Shown here: positions 10,372 to 37,298 of the stretch, piece after piece | How the letters are laid out: the number at the start of each line of letters is the position of its first letter | How positions within the stretch are numbered: the stretch's first letter is position 1 | Source of the DNA: Lachnospiraceae bacterium | GTDB lineage: Bacteria > Bacillota > Clostridia > Lachnospirales > Lachnospiraceae | DNA: 39,249 bases | Direction: 5' to 3' | NCBI GenBank assembly: GCA_021769135.1 | Contig: JAETTM010000040.1 | Coordinates: 1-39,249 of the forward strand | The notes under the pieces: generated by a model | The model's database searches: none | Seen by the model: only the letters and a program-made list of their open reading frames with translations | What the model was told of the DNA's origin: nothing | Position numbers and translations under genes: made by a program

Positions 10372-10767
10372 TTATTTCCCCTGCTCCAAAACGCGTTGGA
10401 TTCTTTCGAGCAGTGCGCCGGAATAAAAAGGTTTCAGTATGTAATCGCAAATCCCCAACTTGGCGCTTTCCAGAACGAAGTTCTTATCCTCTACGCCGGT
10501 AAGCATAATCACCGGTATGTCCGCCCTATCTTTCATAGCGCGTATTACCTGCAGCGTTTCAATGCCGTTCATTTGCGGCATCTGGATATCCAGCAGAATA
10601 AGGTCAGGCTTCTCCTGCTTTAGATATTTTAAAGCCCGTACTCCTGAATTGACTGTAATTACTTCATAATCATTGTTCAGGATATCCGAAATTCGTGTCA
10701 AGACCATTGCGGTATCGTCTACCGCTAAAATGCATTTTTTAGAAGTCCCGCCATTCGCTTGGCTCAT
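10372..10767 (-). CDS. Response regulator receiver protein
   Basis: This 131-residue single receiver domain has Asp17/Asp18, phospho-acceptor Asp60 (LILLDIQMPQMNG), Thr90 and Lys112 (YILKPF). The start at 10767 (MSQANGG) is chosen because GGAGG lies nine bases upstream; ATGs at 10773 and 10788 are possible but badly spaced. The gene start overlaps the end of the hybrid kinase gene by 29 bases, which suggests translational coupling. With no DNA-binding output, it probably acts by protein contact or as a phosphate shuttle. Confidence 0.9.
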   Translation of the reverse strand: MSQANGGTSKKCILAVDDTAMVLTRISDILNNDYEVITVNSGVRALKYLKQEKPDLILLDIQMPQMNGIETLQVIRAMKDRADIPVIMLTGVEDKNFVLESAKLGICDYILKPFYSGALLERIQRVLEQGK

Positions 10768-13615
10768 TTGCATTTTCCTCCTTTCCAAGTATGCTTAGAA
10801 GCTGGTCCAACAGCTCTTCCGCATTATCGTCTTCATATAACTTCAACTGTTCCCGCGTCTGCGAAAGGAGAACCTCTGCGTCTTTTGGCAATTCATGAAG
10901 CAGCATTGCATCCACTCTTTCCGAACATTCCCGGGAGCGAAAATGCCTTAATTCTTCCAGAGCTGTAGCTGCCTGTTCCCTTAGTTCCTGTATTGACAGG
11001 AGGGGGAGCTTTTCTTTCTGGCCGTTTTCCTGTCTGCGTTGGGCCAGAAACTGTTCGATATTTGCCAGAAGGTTCTCATATTCCGCTAACAGCAATGGGA
11101 ACTGGCCGGAAATAAATTCCCTGTCGCCCTGTGCGGCGGCATTCTCATGCGCACGGGCCATGGCTGAGACATCCCTGGCTCCGATATTGGCGGATGCGCT
11201 TTTGAGCCCGTGCACTTCGATTTGATAGCGTAAAATATCTGTTTCCACAAGTTCGGGAAGAAGCTTTATCTTGCGTCTGCCGTCCATGCAGTAAAGATTC
11301 AGTAAATCTATGAACCCCTCTTCATCGCCGGAATAATATTGCATTGCAGCGTTCATATCCACCCCGTTAATATGAAATGCCGACGGATCCAAAGGTTTGG
11401 ATTCCTGTTCCTTGTTTTCTATTTGTCTGTACTTTTCCGGTACCCAGCGCAATAAAAGCTGGTTCAGCTCTTTTCTGTCAAGAGGTTTGGCAATGAAATC
11501 CTGAAAACCGCTTTGAAGGAAATGCTCCCGCATACCTTCCATGGCGTTGGCGGTTAACGCGATAATAACAGGGGCAGCCCCGTTTTCGCCGCAGTCTCTG
11601 CGGATAATCTCCGCCGCCTCAATGCCGTCCATGCCAGGCATCATGTGGTCCATGAAGATGATATCATACCGGGAGGCGCACACCAGTTCAATAGCCTCCG
11701 GCCCGCTTTCCGCCTCGGTCAAATCAAAACCATAATTTTTCAGGAAACCTCTGGCCACCTTGCGGTTGATGACATTATCATCTACGATGAGCACTTTCAC
11801 ACCGGGTGCGGTGAACATATCCGTAATTTTTTGTTCTGCCTGAGGAATGGCAGGCATCTCCGAAACAGGGCGGCTGTCTACAATTTTCTGGGGGATGGAA
11901 ATCGTAACCGTCGTTCCTTTGCCATAAGTGCTTTCCACTTCAATGGTGCCTTCCATCAGTTCCACCAGATGCTTTACAATGGCAAGGCCCAAGCCGGTGC
12001 CTTCCGCGCTCCGGTTTCGCTTGGAGTCCACCTGGCGGAAATCTTCAAAAATCTTGCCAAGGTCTTCCTCCCGAATGCCGCAGCCCGTATCCTCCACACA
12101 GAAAATAAGAAGTTCCTCATCCTCATTCGTTCCGGCTTTTCCGGTAATATATGCGCGTACATATCCTTTTTCCGTAAATTTTATGGCATTGCTGAGAATA
12201 TTAATCAGAATCTGCTTAATCCTGCCGTCATCGCCGTTATAGCGGCAGGGAATCGTTTCGTCGCACTCGTACTTCAAAATCAGCCCCCGTTGGGAAGCCG
12301 CCATATCCATCATCCCAATGATTTCGTCAGCCATAACTTTTATGTAGTAATTCGTATATGCCAATTCCATTTTACCCGCTTCTACCTTGGACAGGTCCAA
12401 AATATCATTGATAATCGCCAGCAGGCTTTTGGCCGCAGACTGTACATCCTTGGCGTGGGCATAAATTTCCGTATCCGCGCATTCTTCCATGATAATATCG
12501 TTCAGCCCGATGATAGCGTTCATCGGGGTCCGTATTTCGTGGGACATATTGGCAAGGAATTCGCTTTTTGCAATGCTGGCTTTCTCCGCCTGGCGCCGCA
12601 CCCGCTTAATCTCATTGATATAGGCCTTTATGTCGGTCATATCCAGAATTAAAATTACGCAGCCCTGTATCCTTCCGTTTTCACCTATGATATGCTTGCT
12701 ATGGCTTTCATAGTGCTGTTCGTTAATGGAAAAGCTCTGGGGGATGTTCTCGTTAAGCATTTCTTCGCGAAAACCTTCCACTACCCTGATGTTTTCCCCC
12801 GGCTTATGGGCAGTCAAGCTGGTAAAAATATTTGCCGCCGCCCTGTTATAGCTGACCAGCCGGTCATGGTCATCCAATGCGATTACCCCATCGCCCAGGC
12901 TTTCCAGAACTTTCTCTGCGGCCAGATGACGAAAATCATAATTGCGGCGTCCCCAGATTACGATGACCACCATGGACATGGATATTGTCAGCGTTATCGG
13001 AGTGAAATCAAATACTTTCACTAATTTACAAACATAGGCTATCAACATAATGACGGGCAGGGCGGAAATCCCCAGAATGGTCCAATATTGACGGTTAACC
13101 AGCCTGTCCGAGCGCTCGCGGATAGCGCGCACCAATGTGTATATGCAAAGTGTATAAGGAATAATTATGCGGCTGAACATAAAAAATATATACAATGGGC
13201 CATAGGTGATGCTGATATGGTAAAATCCATTCGCGTCCGCCGTCCACTGTACTTCCCGGTAGAAAAGGCCATACCAATTAAAAAATACCGAAGGGAGGGC
13301 AAAGAAGCTTACTGCGAAAAGAACCCTTAAAAGCTTTTTGGGGGGAGCGATATAACAATAGATATAAATAAACCAACAATAACATAGCGGTATAAAAACG
13401 GAGCCTACATTTTCCACAGTCACTGCCGTTATCGCAGCCTCCACCGTTGGGGCGGTCAGTTCCAAAAGATACCCCACATTTTGCACCAGTGAGCCGCACA
13501 TAATAATGATTAGCAGTTTCTGTTCTTTGGCCCCATCCCCGTTAAGCAGAAGGAGCAAAGCTACAACAGTCAGGCATATGCCGAAACATTCCAATGCGAT
13601 AACTAAGTTTACCAT
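10739..13615 (-). CDS. Hybrid sensor histidine kinase: 7TM-PAS-HisKA-HATPase-REC-HPt
   Basis: This is a 958-residue membrane kinase. Residues 1-220 hold about seven hydrophobic helices (HisKA_7TM-type sensor). A PAS-like domain covers 225-330. The HisKA H-box is SHEIRTPMN with His359. The ATPase domain has NILSNAIKF (N-box), EDTGCGI and GTGLGLAIVKHL. The receiver is 606-725 with Asp656 (FMDHMMPGMDG) and Lys710, and the HPt has His802 (VHGLKSASANIGA). The helical tail 860-958 is unassigned. The ATG at 13615 is chosen for its GGAAAGG site and the hydrophobic start MVNLVIALECFGICLTVVALL. The frame stays open for 411 codons upstream, but that stretch is antisense to glnA and not real. It is the first gene of a four-gene operon. 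Confidence 0.93.
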   Translation of the reverse strand: MVNLVIALECFGICLTVVALLLLLNGDGAKEQKLLIIIMCGSLVQNVGYLLELTAPTVEAAITAVTVENVGSVFIPLCYCWFIYIYCYIAPPKKLLRVLFAVSFFALPSVFFNWYGLFYREVQWTADANGFYHISITYGPLYIFFMFSRIIIPYTLCIYTLVRAIRERSDRLVNRQYWTILGISALPVIMLIAYVCKLVKVFDFTPITLTISMSMVVIVIWGRRNYDFRHLAAEKVLESLGDGVIALDDHDRLVSYNRAAANIFTSLTAHKPGENIRVVEGFREEMLNENIPQSFSINEQHYESHSKHIIGENGRIQGCVILILDMTDIKAYINEIKRVRRQAEKASIAKSEFLANMSHEIRTPMNAIIGLNDIIMEECADTEIYAHAKDVQSAAKSLLAIINDILDLSKVEAGKMELAYTNYYIKVMADEIIGMMDMAASQRGLILKYECDETIPCRYNGDDGRIKQILINILSNAIKFTEKGYVRAYITGKAGTNEDEELLIFCVEDTGCGIREEDLGKIFEDFRQVDSKRNRSAEGTGLGLAIVKHLVELMEGTIEVESTYGKGTTVTISIPQKIVDSRPVSEMPAIPQAEQKITDMFTAPGVKVLIVDDNVINRKVARGFLKNYGFDLTEAESGPEAIELVCASRYDIIFMDHMMPGMDGIEAAEIIRRDCGENGAAPVIIALTANAMEGMREHFLQSGFQDFIAKPLDRKELNQLLLRWVPEKYRQIENKEQESKPLDPSAFHINGVDMNAAMQYYSGDEEGFIDLLNLYCMDGRRKIKLLPELVETDILRYQIEVHGLKSASANIGARDVSAMARAHENAAAQGDREFISGQFPLLLAEYENLLANIEQFLAQRRQENGQKEKLPLLSIQELREQAATALEELRHFRSRECSERVDAMLLHELPKDAEVLLSQTREQLKLYEDDNAEELLDQLLSILGKEENANEPSEWRDF

Positions 13616-13680
13616 AATACCTTTCCGCCCGCTTGCGGCCTTATTGGCCGACAGGATGGCTTTTTCGTTTATTTCCGCAG

Positions 13681-13730
13681 GCAATGAGCCGGAGGCCATG
13701 CCCGCATGGGCATATGGCAAATGCTGCAGG
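13681..13730. repeat. Dispersed palindromic repeat (copy 3, diverged) in the kinase leader
   Basis: GCAATGAGCC (13681-13690) and GCATATGGCAAATGCTG (13710-13726) match the flanks of copies 1 and 2. The inner stem differs: ATGCCC (13698-13703) with GGGCAT (13708-13713), or alternatively GCCAT with ATGGC. It falls in the transcribed leader of the histidine-kinase operon. Confidence 0.5.
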
Positions 13731-13748
13731 ATATTTGATACTAAAAAT

Positions 13749-13777
13749 ACAATATTACAATTTTGCTGCGGTGTCAA
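13749..13777 (-). promoter_or_regulatory. Promoter of the histidine-kinase signalling operon
   Basis: On the minus strand TTGACA (13772-13777), a 17-base spacer and TATTGT (13749-13754) form a promoter with a perfect -35. The leader would be about 130 nt and includes the palindromic repeat. Confidence 0.6.
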
Positions 13778-13831
13778 GGAATAGCGCATGGATACAGGGC
13801 GTTTCATGAATAATAATTCGCGTAAACATTC

Positions 13832-13860
13832 TTGATAAGCAAAGGGCGATATGATAAGAT
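13832..13860 (+). promoter_or_regulatory. Predicted promoter of the glutamine synthetase gene
   Basis: TTGATA (13832-13837), 17 bases and TAAGAT (13855-13860) lie about 95 bases before the glnA start. The 13616-13954 gap otherwise holds only the divergent kinase promoter and the repeat. No glutamine riboswitch was recognised. Confidence 0.45.
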
Positions 13861-13954
13861 AAAACCACTTTAACGGAGAGGAACCTATTTCGTATCCGTT
13901 AAAAATGCGGGTATGCAGCGAACAAAAAATGAAAAAGAAAGGGATGGGGTTATC

Positions 13955-15385
13955 ATGGACAAGATTCAGGAAATTAAAAAATTGTGTGAAGAAAAGCAGA
14001 TTCGTATGATTGACTTCAAAATGACAGATATTGACGGGCGCTGGAGGCACATTACGATTCCGGTAGAGCGGTTTGACGAAAATACGTTTATTTACGGCAT
14101 CGGGTTTGACGGCTCCAATTACGGGTATGCGCCTATCGAAAAGAGCGACATGGTATTTTTGCCGGATGCCGATACGGCTTATGTAGACCCGTTCGCGTCC
14201 GTGCCTACGCTGACAATGTGCGGAAACGTATGTACAATAGGGAAAGGAGAGAACATACCCTTTGACCAATATCCTAAGAATGTAAGCCTGCGTGCGGTAG
14301 AGTATATGAAGGAAAGCGGAATTGCGGACAGAATGATTATCGGACCGGAATTTGAATTTTATCTGTTTGACACTGCCCGTTATGAAGTGACGCCCTGGCA
14401 GTGCGGGTATCGGATTGACACGAAGCAGGCCGACTGGAACTGCAGCCTGGACAAGGAAGGCAACAATGGATATGAAGTCCCTTATAAAGGGGGCTATCAT
14501 GTAGCGGCACCCCAGGACGTGGGGTATGATTTGCGCAGCCGGATGTGCATGATGATGGAAGACTGGGGGATTAAAGTAAAATATCATCACCATGAAGTGG
14601 GCGGCCCCGGACAGATGGAGATAGAAGTGGAATTGGCGGATATGCCGGCGATGGCGGATAATACCATGATTATTAAGTATATCATTAAAAATATGGCGGC
14701 CAGGGAGGGAAAGACTGCTACTTTCCTGCCAAAGCCGATTTACCAGGAAGCGGGCAGCGGGCTTCATGTCCATATGCTGCTGATGAAGGACGGGAAGCCG
14801 TTGTTCTATGATGAAAACGGCTACTCCGGTTTGAGCCGGACTGCCCATTACTTTATTGGAGGCCTGCTAAAGCATATTGCGTCTTTATGCGCGTTTACCA
14901 ACCCTTCCACCAACTCTTTTAAGCGTTTGGTTCCGGGTTATGAGGCACCGGTGACTATCGGATATGCCACATCCAACAGGAGCGCGGTTATAAGGATTCC
15001 GGCTTATGCGAAATCCCCTGAAGCGAAGCGTTTTGAACTGCGAAACCCTGATGCAACGGCGAATCCGTACTACGCCTATGCAGCGATTTTAATGGCGGGC
15101 CTGGACGGGATTAAGAATCATATCGATCCGGAAGAAAACGGCTGGGGACCGTACGATTTTAACCTTTATACCTTATCGGAAGAGGAGAAGAAAAAGATTA
15201 AAGGTCTGCCGAAGTCATTAGGAGAAGCCTTGGATGCCCTGGAAAAGGACCATGATTATTTGACAGAGGGCGGGGTATTCCCGCAGCGCCTGATTGATAT
15301 ATGGGTGGCGCGCAAACGGGAAGAATTGAAGAAAATGGAGCAAATCCCCAACCCGGCGGAATTTAAGATGTATTATGATTTGTAA
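13955..15385 (+). CDS. glnA: Glutamine synthetase (type I family)
   Basis: The enzyme joins ammonia to glutamate with ATP. The protein has 476 residues. The family motifs are in order: GFDGSNYGYAPIEKSDM, GPEFEFYLF (metal-binding Glu), HHHEVGGPGQMEIEVE, GSGLHVHMLLMKDGKPLF, NPSTNSFKRLVPGYEAPV, and RFELRNPDATANPYYAYAAIL. The adenylylation Tyr region of proteobacterial enzymes is not seen. The ATG at 13955 (MDKIQEIKKLCEEKQIRMIDFKMTDIDG) fits the family start; codons upstream from 13913 are unlikely to be used. It is a single-gene transcript with a divergent kinase operon. The C-terminus is 18 bases from the convergent AraC gene with no visible terminator. Confidence 0.95.
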   Translation: MDKIQEIKKLCEEKQIRMIDFKMTDIDGRWRHITIPVERFDENTFIYGIGFDGSNYGYAPIEKSDMVFLPDADTAYVDPFASVPTLTMCGNVCTIGKGENIPFDQYPKNVSLRAVEYMKESGIADRMIIGPEFEFYLFDTARYEVTPWQCGYRIDTKQADWNCSLDKEGNNGYEVPYKGGYHVAAPQDVGYDLRSRMCMMMEDWGIKVKYHHHEVGGPGQMEIEVELADMPAMADNTMIIKYIIKNMAAREGKTATFLPKPIYQEAGSGLHVHMLLMKDGKPLFYDENGYSGLSRTAHYFIGGLLKHIASLCAFTNPSTNSFKRLVPGYEAPVTIGYATSNRSAVIRIPAYAKSPEAKRFELRNPDATANPYYAYAAILMAGLDGIKNHIDPEENGWGPYDFNLYTLSEEEKKKIKGLPKSLGEALDALEKDHDYLTEGGVFPQRLIDIWVARKREELKKMEQIPNPAEFKMYYDL

Positions 15386-17486: not shown

Positions 17487-17515
17487 TTGACTTTTGAATT
17501 GTTTGGTTATAGAAT
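17487..17515 (+). promoter_or_regulatory. Promoter of the phosphonate/surface-polymer operon
   Basis: TTGACT (17487-17492), 17 bases and TAGAAT (17510-17515) match the housekeeping consensus at 10 of 12 positions. The first start codon is 37 bases downstream of the -10. No internal promoter of similar quality was noticed before 24927. Confidence 0.65.
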
Positions 17516-17552: not shown

Positions 17553-17810
17553 ATGAGAAGAAAAAAAGGACTTGCTGTCCTTAAATTCATGTATTTTTTT
17601 ACCTGTTTCTTTTTCCTGCTTAGCAATCACGCACATGCATATATTGACCCTTCGGCGGTTACCTATGTAATTCAGGCTGTGGCGGGCGTATGTATTGCCG
17701 TGGGTGCCGCATGTACCGTTTACAGGCATAAAATAGCGAAGTTTTTCCGCAAAATGAAGAAAAAGCACAGCAAAAAGCAGCATAATAAGGAAAAGGAATC
17801 CGATGAATAG
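17553..17810 (+). CDS. Small secreted/membrane protein with YIDPS motif
   Basis: This 85-residue protein has a signal peptide-like N-terminus (MRRKKGLAVLKFMYFFTCFF then LLSNHAHA) with likely cleavage after AHA. It is followed by YIDPSAVTYVIQAVAGVCIAVGAACTVY, which is a conserved YIDPS segment and one membrane helix, and a strongly basic cytoplasmic tail (HRHKIAKFFRKMKKKHSKK). Similar small YIDP proteins are found near cell-surface polymer and sulfatase-like genes in Firmicutes, but their function is unknown. AAGGAG precedes the ATG. It overlaps the next gene by 8 bases, so the two are probably made together. Confidence 0.75.
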   Translation: MRRKKGLAVLKFMYFFTCFFFLLSNHAHAYIDPSAVTYVIQAVAGVCIAVGAACTVYRHKIAKFFRKMKKKHSKKQHNKEKESDE

Positions 17811-19746
17811 TATAATTAATCTGATTGGGGATGTGCTGGGGTGGCTGATGTATTTCAGCTATAATTTTTTGCAGGATTATTTTTGGGCAATTTTATTCTT
17901 TACCTTTTTAACGAAAATTGTTCTGTTCCCTGTTTCCCTTATGGTGCAGAAAAATTCCATTAAAATGGTGAAAATGCAGCCGGAAATTAATTTTATCAAG
18001 GCGAAATATTTCGGCAACAGCGAAAAGATATCGGAAGAACAATATGAATTATATAAGAGGGAGCATTATCAGCCATTGGCTGATTTGATTCCCTTGATTC
18101 TCCAGCTGATTTTGCTGATGGGCGTTATCAATGTGATTAACGACCCGGCAAAGCATATTTTCCGGTCAGGCGCAGGAACGCTGGATACCATGGCATGGGG
18201 CATGGATTTGTCTTCCATACCGATAGAGACGGGAGGGATTACATTTATAATTCCTCTTATTGCCGCACTTTCGGCATGGTTTATGTGCTTTATCCAAAAT
18301 CATATCAATGTGCTTCAGTCGGAGCAGAGCAAGATAAACCAATATGGTACGATGGTATTGTCCATCGGTTTATCTTTATATTTAGGCTTTTTTGTAAAAA
18401 CGGGGGTTGGCATTTACTGGACATGCAGCAACCTTCTTTCTGTAACCCAGCTATATTTGCTGAATATCCTTATGAATCCCAAGAAATACATTGATTATGA
18501 TGCATTGGAAAAAAGCCGGAAGGAACTGGCGGAAAGCTCCGCTTTTTATAAATCTTCCTCTAAAAAACTGTTTGAAAAGGATCCATACCGCAAACAGGAA
18601 AAGGCTGATTACAGACGGTTTTTTAAAGATTATGAAATGCAGATTGTCTTTTATTCCGAAAAAAATGGGTTCTACAAATATTTTCAGAATATTATCGAAT
18701 ATCTGTTGGAAAAGACAGATGTTGTCATCAACTATGTGACCAGCGACCCGGAAGACAAGGTCTTTGAGATGGCAAGCGATAGGTTCCGGCCGTTTTATAT
18801 CGGGGAGCACAAGCTGATTGTCCTGATGATGAAAGTGGAAGCGGATATCGTGGTAATGACGACCCCGGATTTGGAGAATTTTCATATTAAAAGGTCTTTG
18901 GTGCGCAAGGATAATGAATACATTTATGTGCCCCATGATGTGAACAGCCCTAACCTTACGTTCCATAAAGATGCCTTGGATCATTTCGATACCATTTTTT
19001 CCTCCGGCTTTTTGTGTACGGAGGAGATAAGGAAGCGGGAGGAAATCTATCATTTGCCTGAAAAGAATATCGTTCCCTGGGGGTCAGGCGTCATCGATAA
19101 TATGATTCAGGCATATGAAAAAATGGAAAAGCGGCAGAAAACGGCAAAGGAAATACTGATTGCCCCTTCATGGCAAAAGGATAATATTTTGTCTTCCTGC
19201 ATCGAAGAGATATTGGATATCCTGGACGGGAAAGGATACAAAATCATTGTCAGGCCCCATCCCCAGTTTGTCCGCCACGAAGCGGGGAGATTGGAGCAAC
19301 TGCGTCAGAAATACCATATGGACTCCCGAGAGGATATGGAACTTCAGACGGACTTTTCCTCCAATAATACGGTTTATGAAGCGGATTTGGTGATTACGGA
19401 TTGGTCCAGCATCGCCTTTGAATATTCTTTTGCCACTTTGAAGCCTTCCTTGTTCATCAACACCCCTATGAAGGTGATGAACGAAGATTATAAGGAGTTA
19501 GGGATTACGCCCATCGATGTGGAACTTCGAAGCGCGATTGGCAAAAGCGTTGATTTGGAAAATCTGAAGGAATTGCCGGATGTTGTCCATGAACTGTTGA
19601 GCAGCAACCAATTTTCAAGGGAAAGCCTGAAAGCCATCAGGGAAAAATATATTTATAACATCGGTTCCAGCAGCCAGGCCGGAGGGGATTATATCATAGA
19701 AAGGTTGCGTTACTTCGAGAAAAAACATGAGGAAGAGGAAGACTGA
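17803..19746 (+). CDS. YidC/Oxa1 insertase domain fused to CDP-glycerol glycerophosphotransferase-like domain
   Basis: This is a 647-residue two-domain protein. Residues 1-235 look like a YidC/Oxa1 core: YNFLQDYFWAILFFTFLTKIVLFPVSL, then a cytoplasmic KMVKMQPEINFIKAKYF...EQYELYKREHYQPL hairpin, LIPLILQLILLMGVI and later helices ending GVGIYWTCSNLLSVTQLYLL. Residues about 270-640 resemble teichoic-acid glycerophosphotransferases (TagB/TagF), with VPHDVNSPN, IVRPHPQFVRHEAG and the DLVITDWSSIAFEYSF motif near 527-542. The reading frame is continuous, so the fusion is not an artefact of ORF calling. Inference: the insertase-like part anchors the transferase or handles the lipid/protein acceptor, while the transferase moves a phospho- or phosphonoalcohol from a CDP/CMP donor made by the downstream genes. 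Confidence 0.85.
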   Translation: MNSIINLIGDVLGWLMYFSYNFLQDYFWAILFFTFLTKIVLFPVSLMVQKNSIKMVKMQPEINFIKAKYFGNSEKISEEQYELYKREHYQPLADLIPLILQLILLMGVINVINDPAKHIFRSGAGTLDTMAWGMDLSSIPIETGGITFIIPLIAALSAWFMCFIQNHINVLQSEQSKINQYGTMVLSIGLSLYLGFFVKTGVGIYWTCSNLLSVTQLYLLNILMNPKKYIDYDALEKSRKELAESSAFYKSSSKKLFEKDPYRKQEKADYRRFFKDYEMQIVFYSEKNGFYKYFQNIIEYLLEKTDVVINYVTSDPEDKVFEMASDRFRPFYIGEHKLIVLMMKVEADIVVMTTPDLENFHIKRSLVRKDNEYIYVPHDVNSPNLTFHKDALDHFDTIFSSGFLCTEEIRKREEIYHLPEKNIVPWGSGVIDNMIQAYEKMEKRQKTAKEILIAPSWQKDNILSSCIEEILDILDGKGYKIIVRPHPQFVRHEAGRLEQLRQKYHMDSREDMELQTDFSSNNTVYEADLVITDWSSIAFEYSFATLKPSLFINTPMKVMNEDYKELGITPIDVELRSAIGKSVDLENLKELPDVVHELLSSNQFSRESLKAIREKYIYNIGSSSQAGGDYIIERLRYFEKKHEEEED

Positions 19747-19747
19747 T

Positions 19748-19761
19748 GTAACAGTTCGGCC
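19748..19761 (+). repeat. GTAACAGTTCGGCC half-repeat
   Basis: This matches 13 of 14 bases of the arm at 17443-17456 (opposite strand) and sits one base after the stop codon of the fusion gene. No pairing partner is seen here, so it looks like half of the two-tier hairpin. Confidence 0.35.
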
Positions 19762-19812
19762 CAGGACTTTGCAACAGTGAAGCCAAAGGCAGAAAGGGTG
19801 GGAAGTTTTCGT

Positions 19813-21042
19813 ATGCAGATAGAACAACAGAGGAAAGATAACAAAGAACAGCAGGAATATATCGGGCATATAAAAAGGAATATTTTACTGAATCCGGGCC
19901 CGGCCACAACTACCGATACGGTAAAAATGGCCCAGGTAGTGCCGGATATCTGCCCGAGGGAAAAGGAATTCGCTTCCATGATGAAGGGGATGCGGGAGGA
20001 TTTGGTTCGTATCGTCCATGGGGATTTGGAGAAACATACTTCGGTCCTTTTCTGCGGTTCCGGAACAATCAATATCGATATATGTCTGAATTCCCTTCTG
20101 CCGGAAGGAAAGAAAATATTGGTGATTAACAACGGCGCTTACAGTTCCCGCGCTGCGGAAATATGCGAATATTATCAGCTGCCCTTTATCGACCTTCGAT
20201 TTCCTGCGGACGAGCTGCCGGATTTGGCGGCGGTGGAGAATATCCTGAAGGAGAATCCGGATATCGCATTGGTCCATACGACGCATAACGAGACAGGTAC
20301 GGGTATTTTGAACCCTGTCCGGGAAATCGGGGCGTTGGCACACAAATATGGCGCCGTATTTACGGTAGATACCACATCTACTTATGCCATGCGGCCTATT
20401 CGCATCGAAGAGGACAATATTGATTTCTGCATGGCTTCGGCCCAGAAAGGCCTTATGGCGATGACGGGCCTGTCGTTTATTGTGGGCAGCAGGGAAATTA
20501 TTGAGAAGTCGGCGGAATATCCGAAACGCTCCTATTATTGCAACCTTTATCTGCAATACCATTTTTTTGAAACGACCGGGGAAATGCATTTCACCCCTCC
20601 GGTTCAGACCATATATGCGGCGCGCCAGGCCATAGACGAATATTTTGCGGAAGGGGAAGAGGCGAAATGGCAGCGGCATTTAAGCGTTTTTGAGGCAATT
20701 CATCATGGGCTGGATAAACTGGGTTTTCATGATATCATCAAAAGGGAATGGCAGGCAGGGCTTGTAGTGGCCGTTAAGTATCCGGACGACGCAAACTGGG
20801 ATTTTGAAAAGGTCCATGATTATTGTTATGAGAGAGGATTCACAATATATCCGGGGAAAATCGCTTCCCAGAGCACTTTTCGGCTATGCGCCTTAGGGGC
20901 TATCACGGCAAAGGACATTGAAGACTTTTTCCGGGTATTCGAAGAAGCATTGAGGCATTTCGATGTGAAGATTCCGGTTCGTTATGAAGAAAAAAGGCAG
21001 CCATGGGCAAATTTGACTTCCGCGGGAAACGGGCCAAGCTGA
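19813..21042 (+). CDS. 2-aminoethylphosphonate aminotransferase-like (PhnW family)
   Basis: This PLP-dependent class V aminotransferase has about 409 residues. The PhnW-type start RNILLNPGPATTTDTVK, the FCGSGTINID loop, VHTTHNETGTGILNPV, VDTTSTYAMRP, and the PLP lysine in ASAQKGLMAMTGLSF are visible. PhnW interconverts 2-aminoethylphosphonate plus pyruvate with phosphonoacetaldehyde plus alanine; beside PEP mutase it would run toward synthesis. The ATG at 19813 is preferred to the GTG at 19777 because GGGAAG is better placed. Since no phosphonopyruvate decarboxylase is encoded nearby, direct amination of phosphonopyruvate to phosphonoalanine is an alternative activity. Confidence 0.85.
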   Translation: MQIEQQRKDNKEQQEYIGHIKRNILLNPGPATTTDTVKMAQVVPDICPREKEFASMMKGMREDLVRIVHGDLEKHTSVLFCGSGTINIDICLNSLLPEGKKILVINNGAYSSRAAEICEYYQLPFIDLRFPADELPDLAAVENILKENPDIALVHTTHNETGTGILNPVREIGALAHKYGAVFTVDTTSTYAMRPIRIEEDNIDFCMASAQKGLMAMTGLSFIVGSREIIEKSAEYPKRSYYCNLYLQYHFFETTGEMHFTPPVQTIYAARQAIDEYFAEGEEAKWQRHLSVFEAIHHGLDKLGFHDIIKREWQAGLVVAVKYPDDANWDFEKVHDYCYERGFTIYPGKIASQSTFRLCALGAITAKDIEDFFRVFEEALRHFDVKIPVRYEEKRQPWANLTSAGNGPS

Positions 21043-21142
21043 CGGGCATGAACGGATATTTGGCATTTATGCGCAAGACTGCGGTAAAGTGAAGCGGCAT
21101 TAATAAATGAAAATAGTATAGCTATGTAGGAATGAGGTAAAA

Positions 21143-22438
21143 ATGGGCAAAGTATATGCATGTTTTTGCACAGATATTATACACGAGGGGCATCTGAATA
21201 TTTTAAAGGAAGCGAATAAATACGGGGATGTCACGGTTGGGATTCTCAGTGACCGGGCCATGATAAAGTATAACCGCTTCCCCACCATTTCCATGGAGGA
21301 ACGGAAGAAAATAGTGGAAGAGACGGGCCTGGTATCGGAAGTGACCGTGCAGGATGAAATCATGTACGATGCCGTCATCAGCCGATTGAGGCCGGATTAT
21401 GTGATTCACGGCGACAACTGGTGCAAGGGCCCGGAAAGCGCCATCCGGGCGAATGTGATAAAGAACTTGAATCAGTATGGGGGGAAGCTGATTGAAGTGG
21501 GATACACTTATAACGAGAATGTGAGAAAAATCGACGACAATATGAAGGAAAAGCTTGCCATGCCGGAATTCAGGAGGAAAAGGCTGCGCCAGCTTTTGGA
21601 ATTATGCCCGATTGTGAAAGCCATCGAAGCCCATAGCGGACTGACCGGATTGATTGCGGAAAAGACAATCGTGGAACATAATGGGGAATTCGACCAGTTC
21701 GATGCCATGTGGCTGTCCAGCCTTTGCGATTCCACGGCAAAGGGGAAGCCGGACATTGAATTGGTGGATATGTCGTCCAGGATACGCACCATAGACGATA
21801 TTATGGAAGTGACCACCAAGCCCATTATTTTGGACGGGGATACCGGCGGATTGGTGGAACATTTTATTTACAACATTCGTACATTGGAACGAATGGGCGT
21901 ATCGGCAGTTATCATAGAGGATAAAACGGGGCTTAAGAAAAATTCCCTGTTCGGTACGGAGGTGGCTCAGACCCAGGATTCCATTGAGAATTTCTGCGAA
22001 AAAATCCGTGCGGGGAAAAATGCCCAAAGAACCGAAGAATTCATGATTATTGCCCGGGTTGAGAGCTTGATTTTGGAGAAAGGGCAGGAGGATGCCCTGA
22101 AGCGGGCCTTTGCCTATGTAAAGGCCGGGGCGGACGGCATTATGATACATTCCAGAAAAAAATCCCCGGATGAAATCTTTGCTTTTTGCGATGCGTTCCG
22201 GGAAAAAGACCTTAAGACTCCCATTGTGGTGGTTCCCACATCCTTTAACAGCGTGACGGAGGCGGAACTAAGGCAGCATGGGGTGAATATTGTGATTTAT
22301 GCCAATCAGCTGACCCGCAGCGCTTTTCCGGCCATGCAGGGCACGGCGATGGAGATACTGAAAAACCACAGGGCATTGGAGGTGGATTCCAAGCTGATGC
22401 CTTTTAAGGAAATTATTACGCTAATCGATGATATTTGA
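21143..22438 (+). CDS. Cytidylyltransferase-PEP mutase fusion
   Basis: This is a 431-residue bifunctional protein. Residues 1-130 are a TagD-like nucleotidyltransferase domain with the HxGH motif HEGH (His14, His17) and an ISMEERKKIV helix; the usual downstream RTEGISTT-like motif is not obvious. Residues 150-431 are phosphoenolpyruvate mutase, which converts PEP to phosphonopyruvate. DGDTGG (Asp231, Asp233) binds metal, and EDKTGLKKNSLFG (259-271) is the mutase signature loop with its NS pair. GAGG lies five bases before the ATG. This is the committing step of phosphonate biosynthesis and fixes the pathway assignment of the operon. It overlaps the next reading frame slightly upstream of that gene's start. 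Confidence 0.9.
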   Translation: MGKVYACFCTDIIHEGHLNILKEANKYGDVTVGILSDRAMIKYNRFPTISMEERKKIVEETGLVSEVTVQDEIMYDAVISRLRPDYVIHGDNWCKGPESAIRANVIKNLNQYGGKLIEVGYTYNENVRKIDDNMKEKLAMPEFRRKRLRQLLELCPIVKAIEAHSGLTGLIAEKTIVEHNGEFDQFDAMWLSSLCDSTAKGKPDIELVDMSSRIRTIDDIMEVTTKPIILDGDTGGLVEHFIYNIRTLERMGVSAVIIEDKTGLKKNSLFGTEVAQTQDSIENFCEKIRAGKNAQRTEEFMIIARVESLILEKGQEDALKRAFAYVKAGADGIMIHSRKKSPDEIFAFCDAFREKDLKTPIVVVPTSFNSVTEAELRQHGVNIVIYANQLTRSAFPAMQGTAMEILKNHRALEVDSKLMPFKEIITLIDDI

Positions 22439-22463
22439 CAGCGGCGCAGAAATGGAGTTGAAT

Positions 22464-23171
22464 ATGGATAAAAAAATCGGCATTATTATGGCAGCGGGAA
22501 TAGGAAGCAGGATGCGCCCCATTACGGAAAGGATTCCCAAGCCCATGGTAAAGGTGTTTGGGAAACCGTTGATTGAAACGGTGATTGACGGCCTTTTGGC
22601 GGCGGGGGTGGAGGATATTTATGTGGTGGCAGGTTATCTGAAAGAAAGCTTTTTCCCGTTGAGGGAGAAGTATCCCCAGATAAAGCTGATTGTAAATAAT
22701 GATTATCTGGAAAAAAACAACATTTCTTCCGTCTATGCGGCAAAGGATGTGCTGGGTACGGCGGATTGCTTTATCTGCGAGGCGGATTTGCTGATTTCGG
22801 ATTCGGCAATTTTTAAGAAAAAATTAGAGGAATCCTGCTACTTCGGCAAAATGGTGGCGGGCAGTTCCGACGATTGGGTGTTTGAATTGGAGGACGGTTA
22901 TATTTCCAGAGTGAAGAAAGGCGGCCGGGATACCTATAATATGGTGGGCATTTCTTATTTTACCAAGCCGGACGGCCTGATTCTTAGGGATAAAATCGTG
23001 GAAGCCTATGGGCAGGAGGAGAATTCCGATTTGTTCTGGGACGAAGTGGTAGATGCAAATCTGCAGGAACTTAAGCTAAGGGTGGAGCCTGTGGATGAAG
23101 GGCAGATTGTGGAAATCGATACGGTGGAAGAACTGCTGGCGATAGATGCCAGGGCGGTTTGCCAAGAATGA
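22464..23171 (+). CDS. LicC/PntC-like nucleotidyltransferase, probable CMP-phosphonate synthase
   Basis: This 235-residue nucleotidyltransferase has the N-terminal signature GIIMAAGIGSRMRPITERIPKPMVKVF-type loop (residues 5-30), NNDYLEKNNISSVYAAKDVL and the acidic CEADLLISD metal site. The pattern is that of choline-phosphate and 2-aminoethylphosphonate cytidylyltransferases (LicC, PntC). It would activate the phosphonate as its CMP ester for transfer. GGAG lies six bases before the ATG at 22464; earlier in-frame ATGs (22428, 22452) are less well placed. The C-terminal EIDTVEELLAID segment is typical of the family. It follows the PEP mutase by 25 bases. Confidence 0.83.
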   Translation: MDKKIGIIMAAGIGSRMRPITERIPKPMVKVFGKPLIETVIDGLLAAGVEDIYVVAGYLKESFFPLREKYPQIKLIVNNDYLEKNNISSVYAAKDVLGTADCFICEADLLISDSAIFKKKLEESCYFGKMVAGSSDDWVFELEDGYISRVKKGGRDTYNMVGISYFTKPDGLILRDKIVEAYGQEENSDLFWDEVVDANLQELKLRVEPVDEGQIVEIDTVEELLAIDARAVCQE

Positions 23172-23187
23172 GGGGCGTAGAAAGGGC

Positions 23188-24927
23188 ATGGTTATTCATA
23201 TGAAAGAAAAATTATTCACAAAGGAAAGAATGAAGAACATTGGGATAGGTTTTTTGATATGTTTTTTGTTCACATTTATGCTGTTGATTTTCGGGCCTGC
23301 GGAAATCTATTTTGTGAATGTGGCGGAGTTTAAGTTCGTATATGGCGAGTTTGTGTGGATACTGTCGGGGATTGCGGTTGCCAGTGCGGCTGTGGTAGGG
23401 CTTGCGGCTGCTTTCCTTCCGGCTGCGGCAAGGAAAATTATATGGTCCGTTTTGTTCGGGCTGTCCGTTGCGGGCTACGCCCAGGTAATGTTTATCAATG
23501 AGGGCCTGGATTTGCTGGGGATGAACCCGGAGGGATATCAGGTGGCGAACGGGCAGGCGGCGGTCAATGGCATTATCTGGCTGGCCATACTGTCTGTGGT
23601 GGTTGCACTTTCTTTTTGGAAAGAAAAAATCTGGCGGGGGCTTATTTGTTTCGGGGCAGTTTTTTTAATCGGCATTCAGTTGACGGCATGGGTCTCTTTG
23701 ATGCTGTCGGCGGAAGATATTGCATACAAATACGAGGAAGGGGAATGGTATCTTTCCGGGGAAAACCAATTTATGGTATCGGCCGATAAAAATATTATCG
23801 TCCTTGTGCTGGACTATTTCAGCAATCAATATGTAGAGCCTGCCATGGAAAAATATCCCGATTTGCTGGATTGCATGAATGACTTTACTTACTACGATAA
23901 TACGGACTGTACTTATTTCGGCACATATCCTTCCATTGCCCATATTTTATCGGGCTCGGAGGTGGATCCGTCCATTCCGGTGAATGAATGGACGTCAAAG
24001 ATATGGCAGGATGAAAAGGCACAGGGATTTTATAAGGCGCTGCAGGACCGGAATTATGTCTGCAATATTTATACCCCGGACAGCAATATGATTTGCGGGA
24101 TGAACAGCGTGGAAAATGTAAAGGGGTTATTTTCCAACGTTACCAACGAGGGGCAGGATTTTAACGTGGATTACGGCCTTCTGGTAAAAACAATGACCAA
24201 AATGTCGGGATACCGTATGTTCCCATATGCGGTAAAACCATATTTGTATACGAATGTGGATGAATATTCGGAAATTATTACTCCTAAAAGCAGAGGGGTA
24301 AGCCATGAGAACCACAGGTATTATGGGCATTTGCTGGAAGAACGCCTGAAAACGGACGATACGTCCAATTATTATATTTTCCAGCATCTGTCGGGGGCCC
24401 ATAACTATAATACCAGCGAAAAGGGGGAACTGAAAGAAGATTCCACCTTAGAAGAGACTATAAAGGGCTGCATGGTGATTGTGGAGGAGTATTTGAATCA
24501 GTTAAAAGAATTAGGGGTTTATGACGATGCTACGATTATCGTAACATCGGACCATGGAAGCCCGAGGGATTCCCAGGTAATATTTTTTATGAAAAATGCC
24601 CACGAGACCCATGATGAGATGGAAGTGAGCAGTGCGCCGGTGAGCCTGAATGAGTTCCAGGCCACCATCGCTCAGGCGGCGGGGATTGACTACACGCCGT
24701 ATGGACCGGCGGTGAGCGATATCTCCCCCACGGAACCCCGGGAACGGACGGTGTGGGTCCGTCTGTATGTGGATACCCTCCCTTCTGTGCCTAAATATTC
24801 CGGGGAAGGGGAAAGCGTATCCAATGCTTACTGCGGATTTACTTATACGGGAGACATCGATGATTTATTGGAAAAATACGATGCGGGCCCGGATATTGTG
24901 ATTCCGGAAACGGATGGGTTTTTCTGA
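23188..24927 (+). CDS. Membrane sulfatase-fold (LTA synthase-like) phosphotransferase/hydrolase
   Basis: About 579 residues. The N-terminal 190 residues hold four or five hydrophobic helices (IGIGFLICFLFTFMLLIFGP, then FVWILSGIAVASAAVVGLAA and others). The extracellular alkaline-phosphatase-superfamily domain shows metal Asp in IIVLVLDYFSN, a nucleophile region TYPSIAHILSG, HLSGAHN and the distal metal pair in VTSDHGSPRDSQ. Related proteins move phosphoglycerol or phosphoethanolamine onto surface glycans (LtaS, EptA). Here the transfer or removal of a phosphonate-bearing group is plausible. Start codons at 23188 and 23200 are both possible. It is the last gene of the operon and is followed by a hairpin. 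Confidence 0.82.
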   Translation: MVIHMKEKLFTKERMKNIGIGFLICFLFTFMLLIFGPAEIYFVNVAEFKFVYGEFVWILSGIAVASAAVVGLAAAFLPAAARKIIWSVLFGLSVAGYAQVMFINEGLDLLGMNPEGYQVANGQAAVNGIIWLAILSVVVALSFWKEKIWRGLICFGAVFLIGIQLTAWVSLMLSAEDIAYKYEEGEWYLSGENQFMVSADKNIIVLVLDYFSNQYVEPAMEKYPDLLDCMNDFTYYDNTDCTYFGTYPSIAHILSGSEVDPSIPVNEWTSKIWQDEKAQGFYKALQDRNYVCNIYTPDSNMICGMNSVENVKGLFSNVTNEGQDFNVDYGLLVKTMTKMSGYRMFPYAVKPYLYTNVDEYSEIITPKSRGVSHENHRYYGHLLEERLKTDDTSNYYIFQHLSGAHNYNTSEKGELKEDSTLEETIKGCMVIVEEYLNQLKELGVYDDATIIVTSDHGSPRDSQVIFFMKNAHETHDEMEVSSAPVSLNEFQATIAQAAGIDYTPYGPAVSDISPTEPRERTVWVRLYVDTLPSVPKYSGEGESVSNAYCGFTYTGDIDDLLEKYDAGPDIVIPETDGFF

Positions 24928-24943
24928 AATATCTTTAGAACAT

Positions 24944-24985
24944 ATGGTTATAGTTCATAATTGGCATGAACTATAACCATTGTTT
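24944..24985. terminator. 15-bp perfect hairpin closing the phosphonate operon
   Basis: Arms at 24944-24958 and 24966-24980 pair perfectly around a 7-base loop; the tail TGTTTAAAAA is only moderately T-rich. It sits between convergent genes and could serve both. Confidence 0.65.
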
Positions 24986-34948: not shown

Positions 34949-35105
34949 GAATATTCTGACCATATATTCTGTTCAAAGCCTGTTGTGCCGGACATTCCAT
35001 CAAGCCCGAAAGCAGAAGCCAGTCGGGGAGCGGCCCTCCTGCCTTCTATGGTCTTGACTTCATGGCACAAAAAGGCTTTTCACAGAATATATGGTCAGAA
35101 TATTC
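34949..35105. mobile_element. 157-bp MITE-like element with 24-bp perfect terminal inverted repeats
   Basis: The termini 34949-34972 and 35082-35105 are perfect 24-bp inverted repeats beginning GAATATTCTGACC. Inside, AGCCT-G-TTGTGCC (34977-34989) pairs with GGCACAA-AA-AGGCT (35064-35077). The 74-base centre has further stems (CCCGA/TCGGG, GGAG/CTCC). No real gene is inside; a 65-codon frame at 34928-35125 is created by the element. It lies within the operon, ending 39 bases before the GH112 start. No clear target duplication was found. Confidence 0.75.
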
Positions 35106-35144
35106 AGCCAAGTTTATGGATTTAGTAGGAATAGGAGGTTTAAG

Positions 35145-37298
35145 ATGAGCAAAGGAACGGGCGGATTTACTTTGCCGGGAGAGGCGGGATATGAAGAGCT
35201 GACATTTAAGATGGCGGAAAAATGGGGGGCGGATGTAATCCGGGATAGCGACGGAACGAAGCTGTCACAGGATATTATCGATGGGGATTATGGGATTTAC
35301 TCCACCATCTGCCTGATTCGCGACCATAATGAGTGGGCGAAGGAACATTTGGACATGCAGCAGCAGACCTTTTTGGTGACGCAGCCGAAGGTAGCGGAAT
35401 GCGGGGAGTTGGAATTCCGCTTGATGGATGATTTTTTTGAAGGCCAGTTCCAGGTGAATAACAGCAAAGAGGCGCTGGGATACTGGCAGCTGTATGACCG
35501 TACGGTGAACCGGGAAGTGCCCTCCGGCCAATGGAAGTATGATGAAAAAACAGGAGTTCTGGCGGCGGAGGGGTTGACGCCATGGCATAAGTATACGGTC
35601 AGCTTTTTGGCGTACCGCATATGGGAAGAAATTTCCATGTACAATCATACAACGAATCATTGGGAAAAAGAGCATTTGATGCAGATAGACCCCAGGTATC
35701 CTGAAGTGCAGGAATATTTGCTGGACTGGATGAAACGCTGGTGCGAAGAGCATCCGGCCACCACGGTGGTGAGGTTTACTTCCCTTTTCTACAATTTTGT
35801 CTGGATTTGGGGGAGCAGCGAAAAGAACAGAAATTTGTTTACGGATTGGGGCTCCTACGATTTTACGGTCAGCCCGCTGGCGCTGCAGGAGTTTGAAAAA
35901 AAGTATGGCTATGCGCTGACGGCAGAGGATTTTGTCAATAAAGGGCAATACCATGTCACCCATATGCCGGGGGATGCCCATAAAATGGATTGGATGGAGT
36001 TTGTAAATGATTTTGTTGTTTCCTATGGAAAGAAATTGGTAGATTTGGTGCATACTTATGGGAAGAAGGCCTATGTGTTCTACGATGACAGCTGGATTGG
36101 CCTGGAGCCTTATGGGGAGCGGTTTGAAGAATTCGGGTTTGACGGTTTGATTAAATGTGTTTTTTCCGGGTATGAAGCGAGGCTTTGTGCCGGGGTGAAA
36201 GTGGGAGTGCATGAATTGCGCCTGCATCCTTATCTGTTTCCGGTAGGGCTGGGAGGGGCGCCCACTTTTATGGAAGGCGGGAACCCGGCATTGGATGCAA
36301 AAAAATATTGGAACAATGTGCGCCGGGCACTTCTTCGGGAACCGGTGGACAGAATCGGTTTAGGGGGATATCTGCATTTGACGGAGGGCTTCCCGGATTT
36401 TGTGGATTATATAGAAGAAGTTTCCGATGAATTCCGGTTTATCCGGGATTTGCATAAGAAAGGAAAGCCTTATACCTGTAAGCCGCGGGTAGGCGTATTG
36501 CATGCATGGGGGAAACTGCGTTCATGGACGCTTTCCGGGCACTTCCATGAAACTTACATGCATGATTTGATTCATGTGAATGAAAGCCTTTCCGGGCTGC
36601 CGTTTCATGTGGAGTTTATCGGCTTTGAGGATGTAAAAAGAGGGGCTTTGGAACATTTGGATGTGGTGATTAATGCGGGATATGCGAAAAGCGCATGGAG
36701 CGGCGGCGAGGCCTGGCGGGAAGCCGAAGTAGTGGAGCGGCTGACCAAATGGGTGCGGGAAGGCGGCTGCTTTATCGGAATAAACGAGCCATCGGCGGTG
36801 GAAGGTTATGATACATTTTTCCGTATGGCCCATGTGTTGGGCATTGATGAGGACACCGGGGCAAGGGTTTGCCATGGAAAATGGGAGTATGAAGTGCGGG
36901 AAGACAGGAAGCTTTTGCCCGAAGGGATTGCTTTGGAAGGCAAGGAAAAGAGATATTTGACGGACGGCAAAGCATGGGTGCTGGCGGAAGAAAACGGGCT
37001 CCCGACCCTGGCCGTAAATCCATGGGGGAAAGGATGCGGAATTTACTTATCTTCGTACAGCTATTCCCTGGAAAATACAAGGATGCTGATGAACCTGATT
37101 TTATACGGCTGCAAAGAACCGCTGGAACAGATGTATTTGACGGACAATGCCCATACCGAGTGCGCATACTTCCCCGAAAGCCAGTGCCTGGTAGTGATGA
37201 ATAACAGCGGAAGCCCGGAAGAATGCAGCGTGCGGACGGAAAAAGGCATCTGCGAATTCCGATTGAAACCTTATGAAACAAGAATGAAGCAATTATAA
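35145..37298 (+). CDS. GH112 galactosyl-hexoside phosphorylase
   Basis: This 717-residue phosphorylase belongs to family GH112, which cleaves beta-1,3-galactosyl-N-acetylhexosamine (lacto-N-biose/galacto-N-biose) or beta-1,4-galactosyl-rhamnose with phosphate to give galactose 1-phosphate. Typical segments are GRFTLPGEAGYE-like (GGFTLPGEAGYE), TPWHKYTVSFLAYRIWEEISMYNH, the catalytic region VFYDDSWIGLEPYGERF with the probable general-acid Asp, and HPYLFPVGLGGAPTFMEGGNP. AGGAGG lies six bases before the ATG; the upstream open frame lies in the inverted-repeat element. It is the only glycan-cleaving enzyme of the operon and thus the best clue to its substrate. Choice between mucin/milk-type disaccharides and galactosyl-rhamnose cannot be made by eye. 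Confidence 0.92.
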   Translation: MSKGTGGFTLPGEAGYEELTFKMAEKWGADVIRDSDGTKLSQDIIDGDYGIYSTICLIRDHNEWAKEHLDMQQQTFLVTQPKVAECGELEFRLMDDFFEGQFQVNNSKEALGYWQLYDRTVNREVPSGQWKYDEKTGVLAAEGLTPWHKYTVSFLAYRIWEEISMYNHTTNHWEKEHLMQIDPRYPEVQEYLLDWMKRWCEEHPATTVVRFTSLFYNFVWIWGSSEKNRNLFTDWGSYDFTVSPLALQEFEKKYGYALTAEDFVNKGQYHVTHMPGDAHKMDWMEFVNDFVVSYGKKLVDLVHTYGKKAYVFYDDSWIGLEPYGERFEEFGFDGLIKCVFSGYEARLCAGVKVGVHELRLHPYLFPVGLGGAPTFMEGGNPALDAKKYWNNVRRALLREPVDRIGLGGYLHLTEGFPDFVDYIEEVSDEFRFIRDLHKKGKPYTCKPRVGVLHAWGKLRSWTLSGHFHETYMHDLIHVNESLSGLPFHVEFIGFEDVKRGALEHLDVVINAGYAKSAWSGGEAWREAEVVERLTKWVREGGCFIGINEPSAVEGYDTFFRMAHVLGIDEDTGARVCHGKWEYEVREDRKLLPEGIALEGKEKRYLTDGKAWVLAEENGLPTLAVNPWGKGCGIYLSSYSYSLENTRMLMNLILYGCKEPLEQMYLTDNAHTECAYFPESQCLVVMNNSGSPEECSVRTEKGICEFRLKPYETRMKQL

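Follow-up and report, generated by a model that had tools for sequence, protein, structure and literature searches.

We analyzed a 39,249-nucleotide contig of a Lachnospiraceae bacterium (the window), in which a first-pass annotation had described a phosphonate-activated surface-polymer operon of six genes apparently driven by one promoter. Six open reading frames (ORFs), all on the + strand, were confirmed at positions 17553–24927. They encode a YIDPS membrane peptide of 85 aa (17553–17810), a YidC–TagF-like transferase fusion of 647 aa (17803–19746; YidC domain 17878–18465, transferase domain approximately 18607–19743), a PhnW/AepZ-type 2-aminoethylphosphonate (AEP) aminotransferase (19777–21042), the phosphoenolpyruvate (PEP) mutase Ppm with an N-terminal Fom1-like cytidylyltransferase domain (21143–22438), a PntC/LicC-like cytidylyltransferase (22428–23171) and an LtaS-like membrane ectoenzyme with a sulfatase fold (23146–24927). 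Reading of the ORFs pointed to better-looking in-frame ATG codons as the likely starts of the aminotransferase (19813), the nucleotidyltransferase (22464) and the sulfatase-like protein (23188). Three of the five junctions overlap, by 8, 11 and 26 bases, and the remaining two are gaps of 30 and 100 bases. A promoter-like site (TTGACT-17-TAGAAT, a 10-of-12 match) lies on the + strand upstream of the first gene (17487–17515), and a perfect inverted repeat with 15-nt arms, a possible terminator, is found past the last gene (24944–24980). Sites of 10-of-12 quality numbered 14 in the region, compared with 16.0 expected from shuffles. The genes and their domain calls were borne out, and a single promoter for the operon is plausible.

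Three of these enzymes belong to a phosphonate route. The aminotransferase scored 458 bits against the PhnW-AepZ model TIGR03301 (cut-off 361), and Ppm scored 415 bits against the PEP mutase model TIGR02320 (cut-off 320), with a CTP_transf_like domain at its N-terminus. The Ppm motif EDKxxxxxNS is intact (EDKTGLKKNS), as is the HxGH motif (HEGH) of the fused cytidylyltransferase domain; the protein matches PDB entries 5X3D (4e-28) and 5UNC (2.6e-40), and it is the sole PF13714 match in the window's genome. For the separate nucleotidyltransferase (NTase), the nearest PDB chain was LicC 1JYK (8.1e-35). Its PntC motif, GxG(T/S)R-x4-8-PK, is intact, and Glu118 occupies the position of Glu104 in Tde-PntC and Asp105 in Spn-LicC, which is described as a specificity position in the part of PMC6697681 available to us. 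The alignment to Tde-PntC ended short of the Tde 196 position; in the corresponding stretch, the window's enzyme contains FWDE, which is LicC-like. The motif and the Glu support the PntC-type activation proposed in the first-pass annotation, by which the enzyme would activate AEP. As a separate observation, the second cytidylyltransferase domain (21143–21562, HEGH) is kept in Ppm despite the adjacent PntC.

The fusion combines, in one 647-aa frame, a YidC domain (PF02096, 3.9e-31) and a Glyphos_transf domain (PF04464, 6.5e-10). Sequence profiles of the full fusion returned YidC and OXA1L chains and no TagF; the profile of the transferase part alone reached Cps3D and TarL. When a structure model (pLDDT 85.7, pTM 0.61) was searched with Foldseek, the transferase part matched TagF 3L7L (3.5e-10) and the YidC part matched YidC 6AL2 (7.8e-7). 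We aligned 66 of the 72 fusion sequences and 36 of the 65 ectoenzyme sequences at hand. His378 and His486, which we take to be the catalytic His pair of TagF, are invariant in all 66 fusions, and groove position 38 is Lys or Arg in all 66 (Lys38 in the window). Because the transferase domain is placed after the last YidC helix, the known topology of YidC would locate it in the cytosol, where CMP-activated AEP (CMP-AEP) would be made. The window's genome has a separate housekeeping YidC, so the fusion is a second copy. Full-length or nearly full-length copies were found in 5 of 150 genomes of the same family, counting its own (the G051 copy consists of two segments in one frame), and the fusion was present as a single frame at 76 of the 80 loci described below; this recurrence excludes chance as its origin. 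At L060 (strain 526-35), around position 10001, the reading frame is split into two ORFs, through a sequencing error or a break.

The YIDPS protein matched no family in Pfam or NCBIfam. It has a leader ending in AHA, the YIDPS motif at the predicted outer face, one further transmembrane (TM) helix and a basic tail. The motif likely faces outward, because Ala directly precedes it in 35 of 53 homologues (that of the window among them), in many cases within an A-x-A or S-x-A that follows a hydrophobic leader, and the leader of many other homologues is just a few residues long. In YIDPG transferases, a like motif leads a single hydrophobic stretch into the cytosolic domain. Phage coat identity was rejected for the YIDPS peptide, as the PF05356 match of one homologue was weak and below the cut-off. 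The ectoenzyme comprises five predicted TM helices and a sulfatase-fold domain. It reached no family cut-off in Pfam or NCBIfam (Sulfatase PF00884, 21.8 bits, just below the cut-off of 25), and of 36 homologues, 35 had a Pfam Sulfatase match at E 0.01. The nearest chain in a profile search was LtaS 2W5Q (2.9e-9), and the fold matches include PbgA, sulfatases, phosphonate monoester hydrolases, LtaS and EptA. Asp223, Asp469 and His470 are conserved in 36/36 sequences and Thr260 in 35/36; Thr260 is the putative nucleophile, as judged by its position before a helix and not by an aligned structure. The protein thus displays the TM bundle, sulfatase fold, Thr and metal ligands of the lipoteichoic acid synthase architecture. 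At one relative, a membrane acyltransferase (PF01757; L055:6439–7371) lies between the ectoenzyme gene and that of Ppd, an enzyme considered below; ORFs of the same length at L058 and L059 were likened to it by length only.

We then examined how often these parts occur together. A pattern scan of GTDB species genomes yielded 282 relatives of the fusion at E 1e-3, from which the best 80 were kept. The fusion was recovered as one frame at 76 of these loci, while L083, L105, L110 and L115 gave no fusion ORF, at least partly because of the script's overlap rule. The loci nearest to the window's are those of Lachnospiraceae bacterium IMSAGC_002 and strain 526-35. Within 6 kb of the 76 fusions, we found the ectoenzyme at 53, the YIDPS protein at 55 and a cytidylyltransferase at 57. 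When the count was restricted to the 47 loci flanked by 6 kb or more on each side, the numbers were 34, 32 and 40, respectively, with a pyridoxal phosphate (PLP) enzyme at 30. As a control, none of 20 housekeeping yidC loci (family members, approximately 12 to 20 kb each) had any of these neighbours. The same domains also recur in permuted fusions; with Y for the YIDPS or YIDPG part, GT for the transferase and S for the ectoenzyme, these were YidC-GT-S (L067, L068), S-YidC-GT (L071, L096), Y-S adjoining YidC-GT (L101, L113, L121, L125) and Y-GT adjoining YidC-S (L045, L046, L047). In the last arrangement, a YIDPG-transferase beside a YidC-sulfatase mirrors the window's domains (L045:8614–12774, L046:5828–10700, L047:9084–13126). 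Direct fusion of the ectoenzyme to YidC or YidC-GT was seen in 7 of 92 loci. Among 50 well-flanked loci, 27 had all four parts, 18 had three and 5 had two. These results suggest that the YIDPS hairpin, the YidC domain, the TagF-like transferase domain and the LtaS-like ectoenzyme belong to one four-part set, and that the parts act together, as such permuted fusions usually indicate. The first-pass annotation had assigned the domains of the six genes correctly but had overlooked that the YIDPS and sulfatase-like proteins form a recurring set with the fusion.

The genes that accompany this set vary. We labelled donor cassettes using BLAST at 1e-5, 6 kb either way, in a fixed priority order. At the 76 fusions, the cassettes were of the phosphonate type (18), an NTase with a CobD-like PLP domain (18), choline kinase with LicC (5), a HisC-like type (4), an NT3 type (2) and an NTase only (8), with none recognised at 21. 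All four HisC-like cassettes were in Saccharibacteria records. Records with a Saccharibacteria title that contain the fusion with CobD-like or HisC-like cassettes include L107, L109, L112, L116, L117, L118, L124, L126, L127 and others. Conservation of gene order had been proposed as a check on the first-pass annotation, and the order fusion-PhnW-Ppm-PntC is shared by 12 of the 18 loci with a phosphonate cassette; within these, small unlabelled ORFs occur at L051 and L056, and the fusion is present as two ORFs at L060. L063 has the same order with one intervening ORF, and five phosphonate loci differ.

In the second common cassette, a 620-aa neighbour was considered as a LicC-choline kinase protein; this was ruled out, since its domains are an NTase and a CobD-like domain, the latter with 6OUX as its nearest PDB chain (2.7e-43). 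According to the portion of PMC12409886 available to us, Cj1436 of Campylobacter converts serine phosphate to ethanolamine phosphate by decarboxylation. Because of this analogy, the NTase + CobD-like cassette is predicted to make CDP-ethanolamine, the phosphate counterpart of CMP-AEP.

We mapped the cassette labels onto trees of the transferases. In a careful tree of 38 of the 77 rows, chosen by us, the phosphonate label required 6 changes, every one of which was forced by starred branches; the comparison of phosphonate with the CobD type alone also gave 6. A quick tree of all 77 rows gave 7 changes for the phosphonate label, of which at least 6 were forced, and 6 for phosphonate versus the CobD type. 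The transferase of L079 (phosphonate) is 86% identical to those of L075 and L076 (CobD-type), and the transferases of L104 and L094 are 81% identical to that of L084. The enzymes, their conserved active-site residues, their linkage and the swapping of cassettes can be read directly from the sequences.

The phosphonate route requires one further enzyme, Ppd, a need that the first-pass annotation had overlooked. Ppd is not in the window's operon; it is encoded elsewhere in the genome (C15:62517–63602; TIGR03297, 460 bits against a cut-off of 312.5). We searched the genomes of 17 of the 18 phosphonate loci (L059 was left out) and of L115, whose fusion ORF had been lost by the script. Ppd was above the cut-off in 18/18 of these other genomes with Ppm near the fusion; in addition to these, the genome of L102, whose contig begins at the fusion, has Ppd. 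For 14 of the 18, the gene lies inside the region that was fetched, and for L049, L060, L063 and L115 outside it, as in the window's genome. L056 and L057 were counted by position, because the ORF script had overlooked Ppd there and the genome search placed it within approximately 6 kb of Ppm. Seven genomes whose cassette is of the CobD type or the choline type were also tested, and none had Ppd. This presence in genomes with Ppm near the fusion suggests that the route runs to AEP, and the expected product of the operon would be CMP-AEP. Phosphonate synthesis through PEP mutase, as originally claimed, is therefore supported by the TIGR02320 score, the EDKTGLKKNS motif and a complete AEP route. 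The window genome's Ppd gene (G000, region C15:54000–72000; L009) lies away from any Ppm, and its contig also carries three LicD matches and several TagD-like matches; an ORF of 876 aa and other ORFs beside it were judged, by eye only, to be Glyphos_transf-like and AAA/nuclease-like, respectively.

We consider it reasonably probable, on this evidence, that the window carries a phosphonyl-tailoring operon, in which a dedicated membrane transferase machine would put AEP on a membrane-held acceptor. For each reaction, the acceptor, the complex and the step outside, we infer the following scheme. Ppm would convert PEP to phosphonopyruvate, Ppd would convert this to phosphonoacetaldehyde, the PhnW-type enzyme would form AEP, and PntC would activate it to CMP-AEP. 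With CMP-AEP as its donor, the cytosolic TagF-like domain would then place AEP on an acceptor held in the membrane (a lipid or a glycan linked to one), which would yield a decoration or cap instead of a repeating polymer. Both the YIDPS peptide and the LtaS-like ectoenzyme may belong to the same complex as the fusion, and the ectoenzyme may move or remove the AEP group at the outer face. The best reading of the fusion is that it is the missing AEP transferase and a decorating enzyme rather than a polymerase, because AEP has no hydroxyl to extend. The same chemical reasoning applies to phosphoethanolamine and phosphocholine, which likewise cannot form a phosphodiester-type chain. The original term 'surface-polymer' was for this reason not upheld, whereas the proposal that a CMP-phosphonate would be the donor of the transferase is supported by the cassette swapping, the lack of LicD and CDP-glycerol synthase in many genomes (see below) and the conserved gene order. 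A rare compound with a C–P bond is probably made, activated and attached to a component of the cell envelope by an unusual membrane machine, and in relatives this machine is predicted to adjoin genes for ethanolamine- or choline-type groups instead.

However, several observations weigh against this interpretation. No cassette was recognised at 21 of the 76 loci and an NTase alone was present at 8, although some contigs are short. The cassettes change under one transferase, but this does not by itself demonstrate that their products are used by it. On the careful tree, the CobD-type label was scattered as in shuffles (243 of 500 were as low), and the CobD-like domain scored 172.8 bits, below the CobD equivalog cut-off of 290.55. 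In Foldseek, other GT-B enzymes, such as UDP-GlcNAc 2-epimerases, matched the transferase part almost as well as TagF. The specificity residue also gives no clean split between AEP and choline NTases. This position was read by a motif script in 16 of 17 phosphonate NTases, 13 of 14 CobD-fused NTases, 7 of 10 others and neither of the two NT3-type enzymes. Glu was found in all 16 readable PntCs of phosphonate cassettes, the window's included, and also in all 13 readable CobD-fused NTases. Among the five readable NTases at choline kinase loci, two have Asp (that of L065 and the small NTase of L070), two have Pro (those fused to or in-frame with choline kinase at L070 and L072) and one has Ser (the other NTase of L072), while the NTases of L100 and L113, which have no kinase label, carry Glu. 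In addition, only 12 of 40 Ppm loci in a family sample had a TagF-like transferase of this type, with some contigs being short. This sample comprised 397 genomes, 46 of which had Ppm at E 1e-60. Besides the window's, there were 48 Ppm places, for which 40 regions were fetched and L043, L046 and L048 were already at hand; L167, L169, L173 and L197 yielded no Ppm ORF by script, and 40 loci, including the window's, remained. A YidC fusion was present in 9, a YIDPG transferase in 3 and LicD in 12, one of these having both, and 17 had neither. LicD and TagF-like transferases did not exclude each other significantly at these loci (Fisher's test, p 0.067), and we claim no exclusion.

A further step across the membrane would extend the preferred interpretation to a two-sided relay, in which the fusion loads AEP on a lipid inside, the YidC domain scrambles the head group and the LtaS-like enzyme transfers it outside. 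LtaS and EptA use lipid donors, which is consistent with such a relay. It is attractive, because a transferase inside and a phospho-enzyme outside are often linked (53 of 76 loci within 6 kb, with direct fusion to YidC or YidC-GT at 7 of 92) and because E. coli YidC scrambles phospholipids in vitro, as described in the part of a preprint available to us (PMC10491306). The Lys or Arg at the groove position in 66/66 fusions also fits. However, the relay is unproven; the preprint itself states, in that same part, that physiological relevance was not shown, and 5 of the 50 well-flanked loci hold just two of the four parts nearby. The relay contains the tailoring interpretation with a crossing step added, and the probabilities of the two overlap; we regard the crossing as possible rather than probable.

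As the chief alternative, the YidC domain would serve as a private insertase, which places the YIDPS peptide with its N-terminus out and holds it in the complex, with no role in lipid movement. The peptide often has a very short leader and yet must export its N-terminus, and it is present within 6 kb at 55 of the 76 loci. Moreover, the sub-cut-off PF05356 match of one homologue recalls the Pf3 coat, a client of YidC. However, the YIDPS peptide was not found within 6 kb at the other 21 loci, and in 3 of the 5 loci at which YIDPG is fused to the transferase, YidC is still nearby as part of a fusion with the ectoenzyme. This role is considered doubtful.

The fusion could instead be a teichoic-acid-type polymerase that acts on CDP-glycerol or another polyol, with a LicD encoded elsewhere adding AEP, ethanolamine or choline. 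PF04464 is named for CDP-glycerol transferases. The window's genome has five LicD matches, and a LicD could be the transferase there, because three of them share the contig of Ppd; this also counts against the fusion as AEP transferase. However, no LicD was found in 10 of 30 tested fusion genomes, namely 4 of 17 with a phosphonate cassette (a set that includes the window's) and 6 of 13 with the CobD type, although draft genomes may miss genes. The glycerol-3-phosphate cytidylyltransferase model TIGR01518 was over its cut-off in 3 of the 30 genomes and below it in 27; with the same caveat for drafts, 6 genomes, all CobD-type, had no match at all, and CDP-ribitol synthases were not included in the search. 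In G150, G160, G161, G163 and G164, the sole TIGR01518 match was the Ppm-fused domain, as judged by place or frame length. Furthermore, of the 36 loci with a phosphonate or CobD-type cassette, 34 had no TagD-like gene within 6 kb. A polymerase of this kind is thus unlikely. As a separate observation, two Saccharibacteria genomes, G427 and G430 (0.7 and 0.8 Mb as listed), had no LicD or TagD match.

Finally, a pathway that stops at phosphonoalanine by transamination of phosphonopyruvate, with CMP-phosphonoalanine as the donor, was named as a possibility in the first-pass annotation and agrees with the absence of Ppd from the operon, but it was set aside as very improbable, since every tested genome that has Ppm near the fusion, the window's and 18 others, also has Ppd (inside the fetched region for 14 of the 18), and the aminotransferase exceeds the PhnW-AepZ cut-off.

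Returning to the tailoring operon, we compared it with known systems. The Pnt pathway with PntC (Rice et al. 2019, PMC6697681), so far as the accessible part of that paper describes it, shares with the window Ppm with a fused PF01467 domain, an AEP transaminase and the LicC-like PntC, and clusters with both fused and separate nucleotidyltransferases are described there. In that part, the later steps are described as enigmatic, LicD-like phosphotransferases or glycosyltransferases are given as neighbours, and the word YidC is absent from the main text; here, these neighbours are replaced by the YidC–TagF-like fusion, the YIDPS peptide and the LtaS-like enzyme. The LicABCD phosphocholine pathway likewise uses a CMP-activated aminoalkyl phosphate, and some of the fusion's relatives have choline kinase and LicC-like genes as neighbours, but LicD is seemingly not needed here, although none of the 10 genomes lacking it was of the choline type. 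The teichoic acid and capsule polymerases TagF, TarL and Cps3D share the fold and the PF04464 domain, whereas the window's enzyme has a YidC membrane part and an expected donor without a hydroxyl, and 27 of the 30 tested fusion genomes fall below the cut-off of the CDP-glycerol synthase model. LtaS, EptA and PbgA share the five predicted TM helices, the sulfatase-fold domain and the conserved Asp, His and Thr with the ectoenzyme, but are too distant for a reaction to be assigned, and in some relatives the ectoenzyme is fused to YIDPS, YidC or YidC-GT. YidC/Oxa1 insertases share PF02096, the fold and the positive groove residue; here, in contrast, the YidC is a second copy whose fusion partner is a transferase or, in some relatives, the ectoenzyme. 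The parts and the pathway logic are therefore of known kinds. What appears new is the assembly and the change of cassette under one transferase, for which we found no description in the open-licence PMC literature.

This set names a concrete transferase candidate for the still open step by which CMP-activated phosphonates arrive at the bacterial surface. It also offers a setting in which lipid movement could be the job of the YidC/Oxa1 fold, which is known as a protein insertase and, lately, as a lipid scrambler in vitro. Because the carriers are gut Lachnospiraceae and small Saccharibacteria genomes, the set bears on the decoration of commensal surfaces. In a broader and doubtful extension, the four-part YIDPx/YidC/TagF-like/LtaS-like machine might load CMP- or CDP-activated aminoalkyl phospho(no) groups on a lipid carrier, the YidC fold might scramble them and the ectoenzyme might hand them to surface acceptors, with the donor cassette (AEP, ethanolamine phosphate or choline phosphate) exchanged repeatedly from Lachnospiraceae to Saccharibacteria.

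Two other features of the window were noted. A lacto-N-biose phosphorylase is encoded at 35091–37298, which would fit a gut bacterium feeding on mucin or milk glycans. On the – strand, an ORF of 1369 aa (10739–14848) encodes a hybrid histidine kinase; its true start is probably further in than this ORF suggests, because its first part overlaps a glutamine synthetase gene on the opposite strand (13913–15385).

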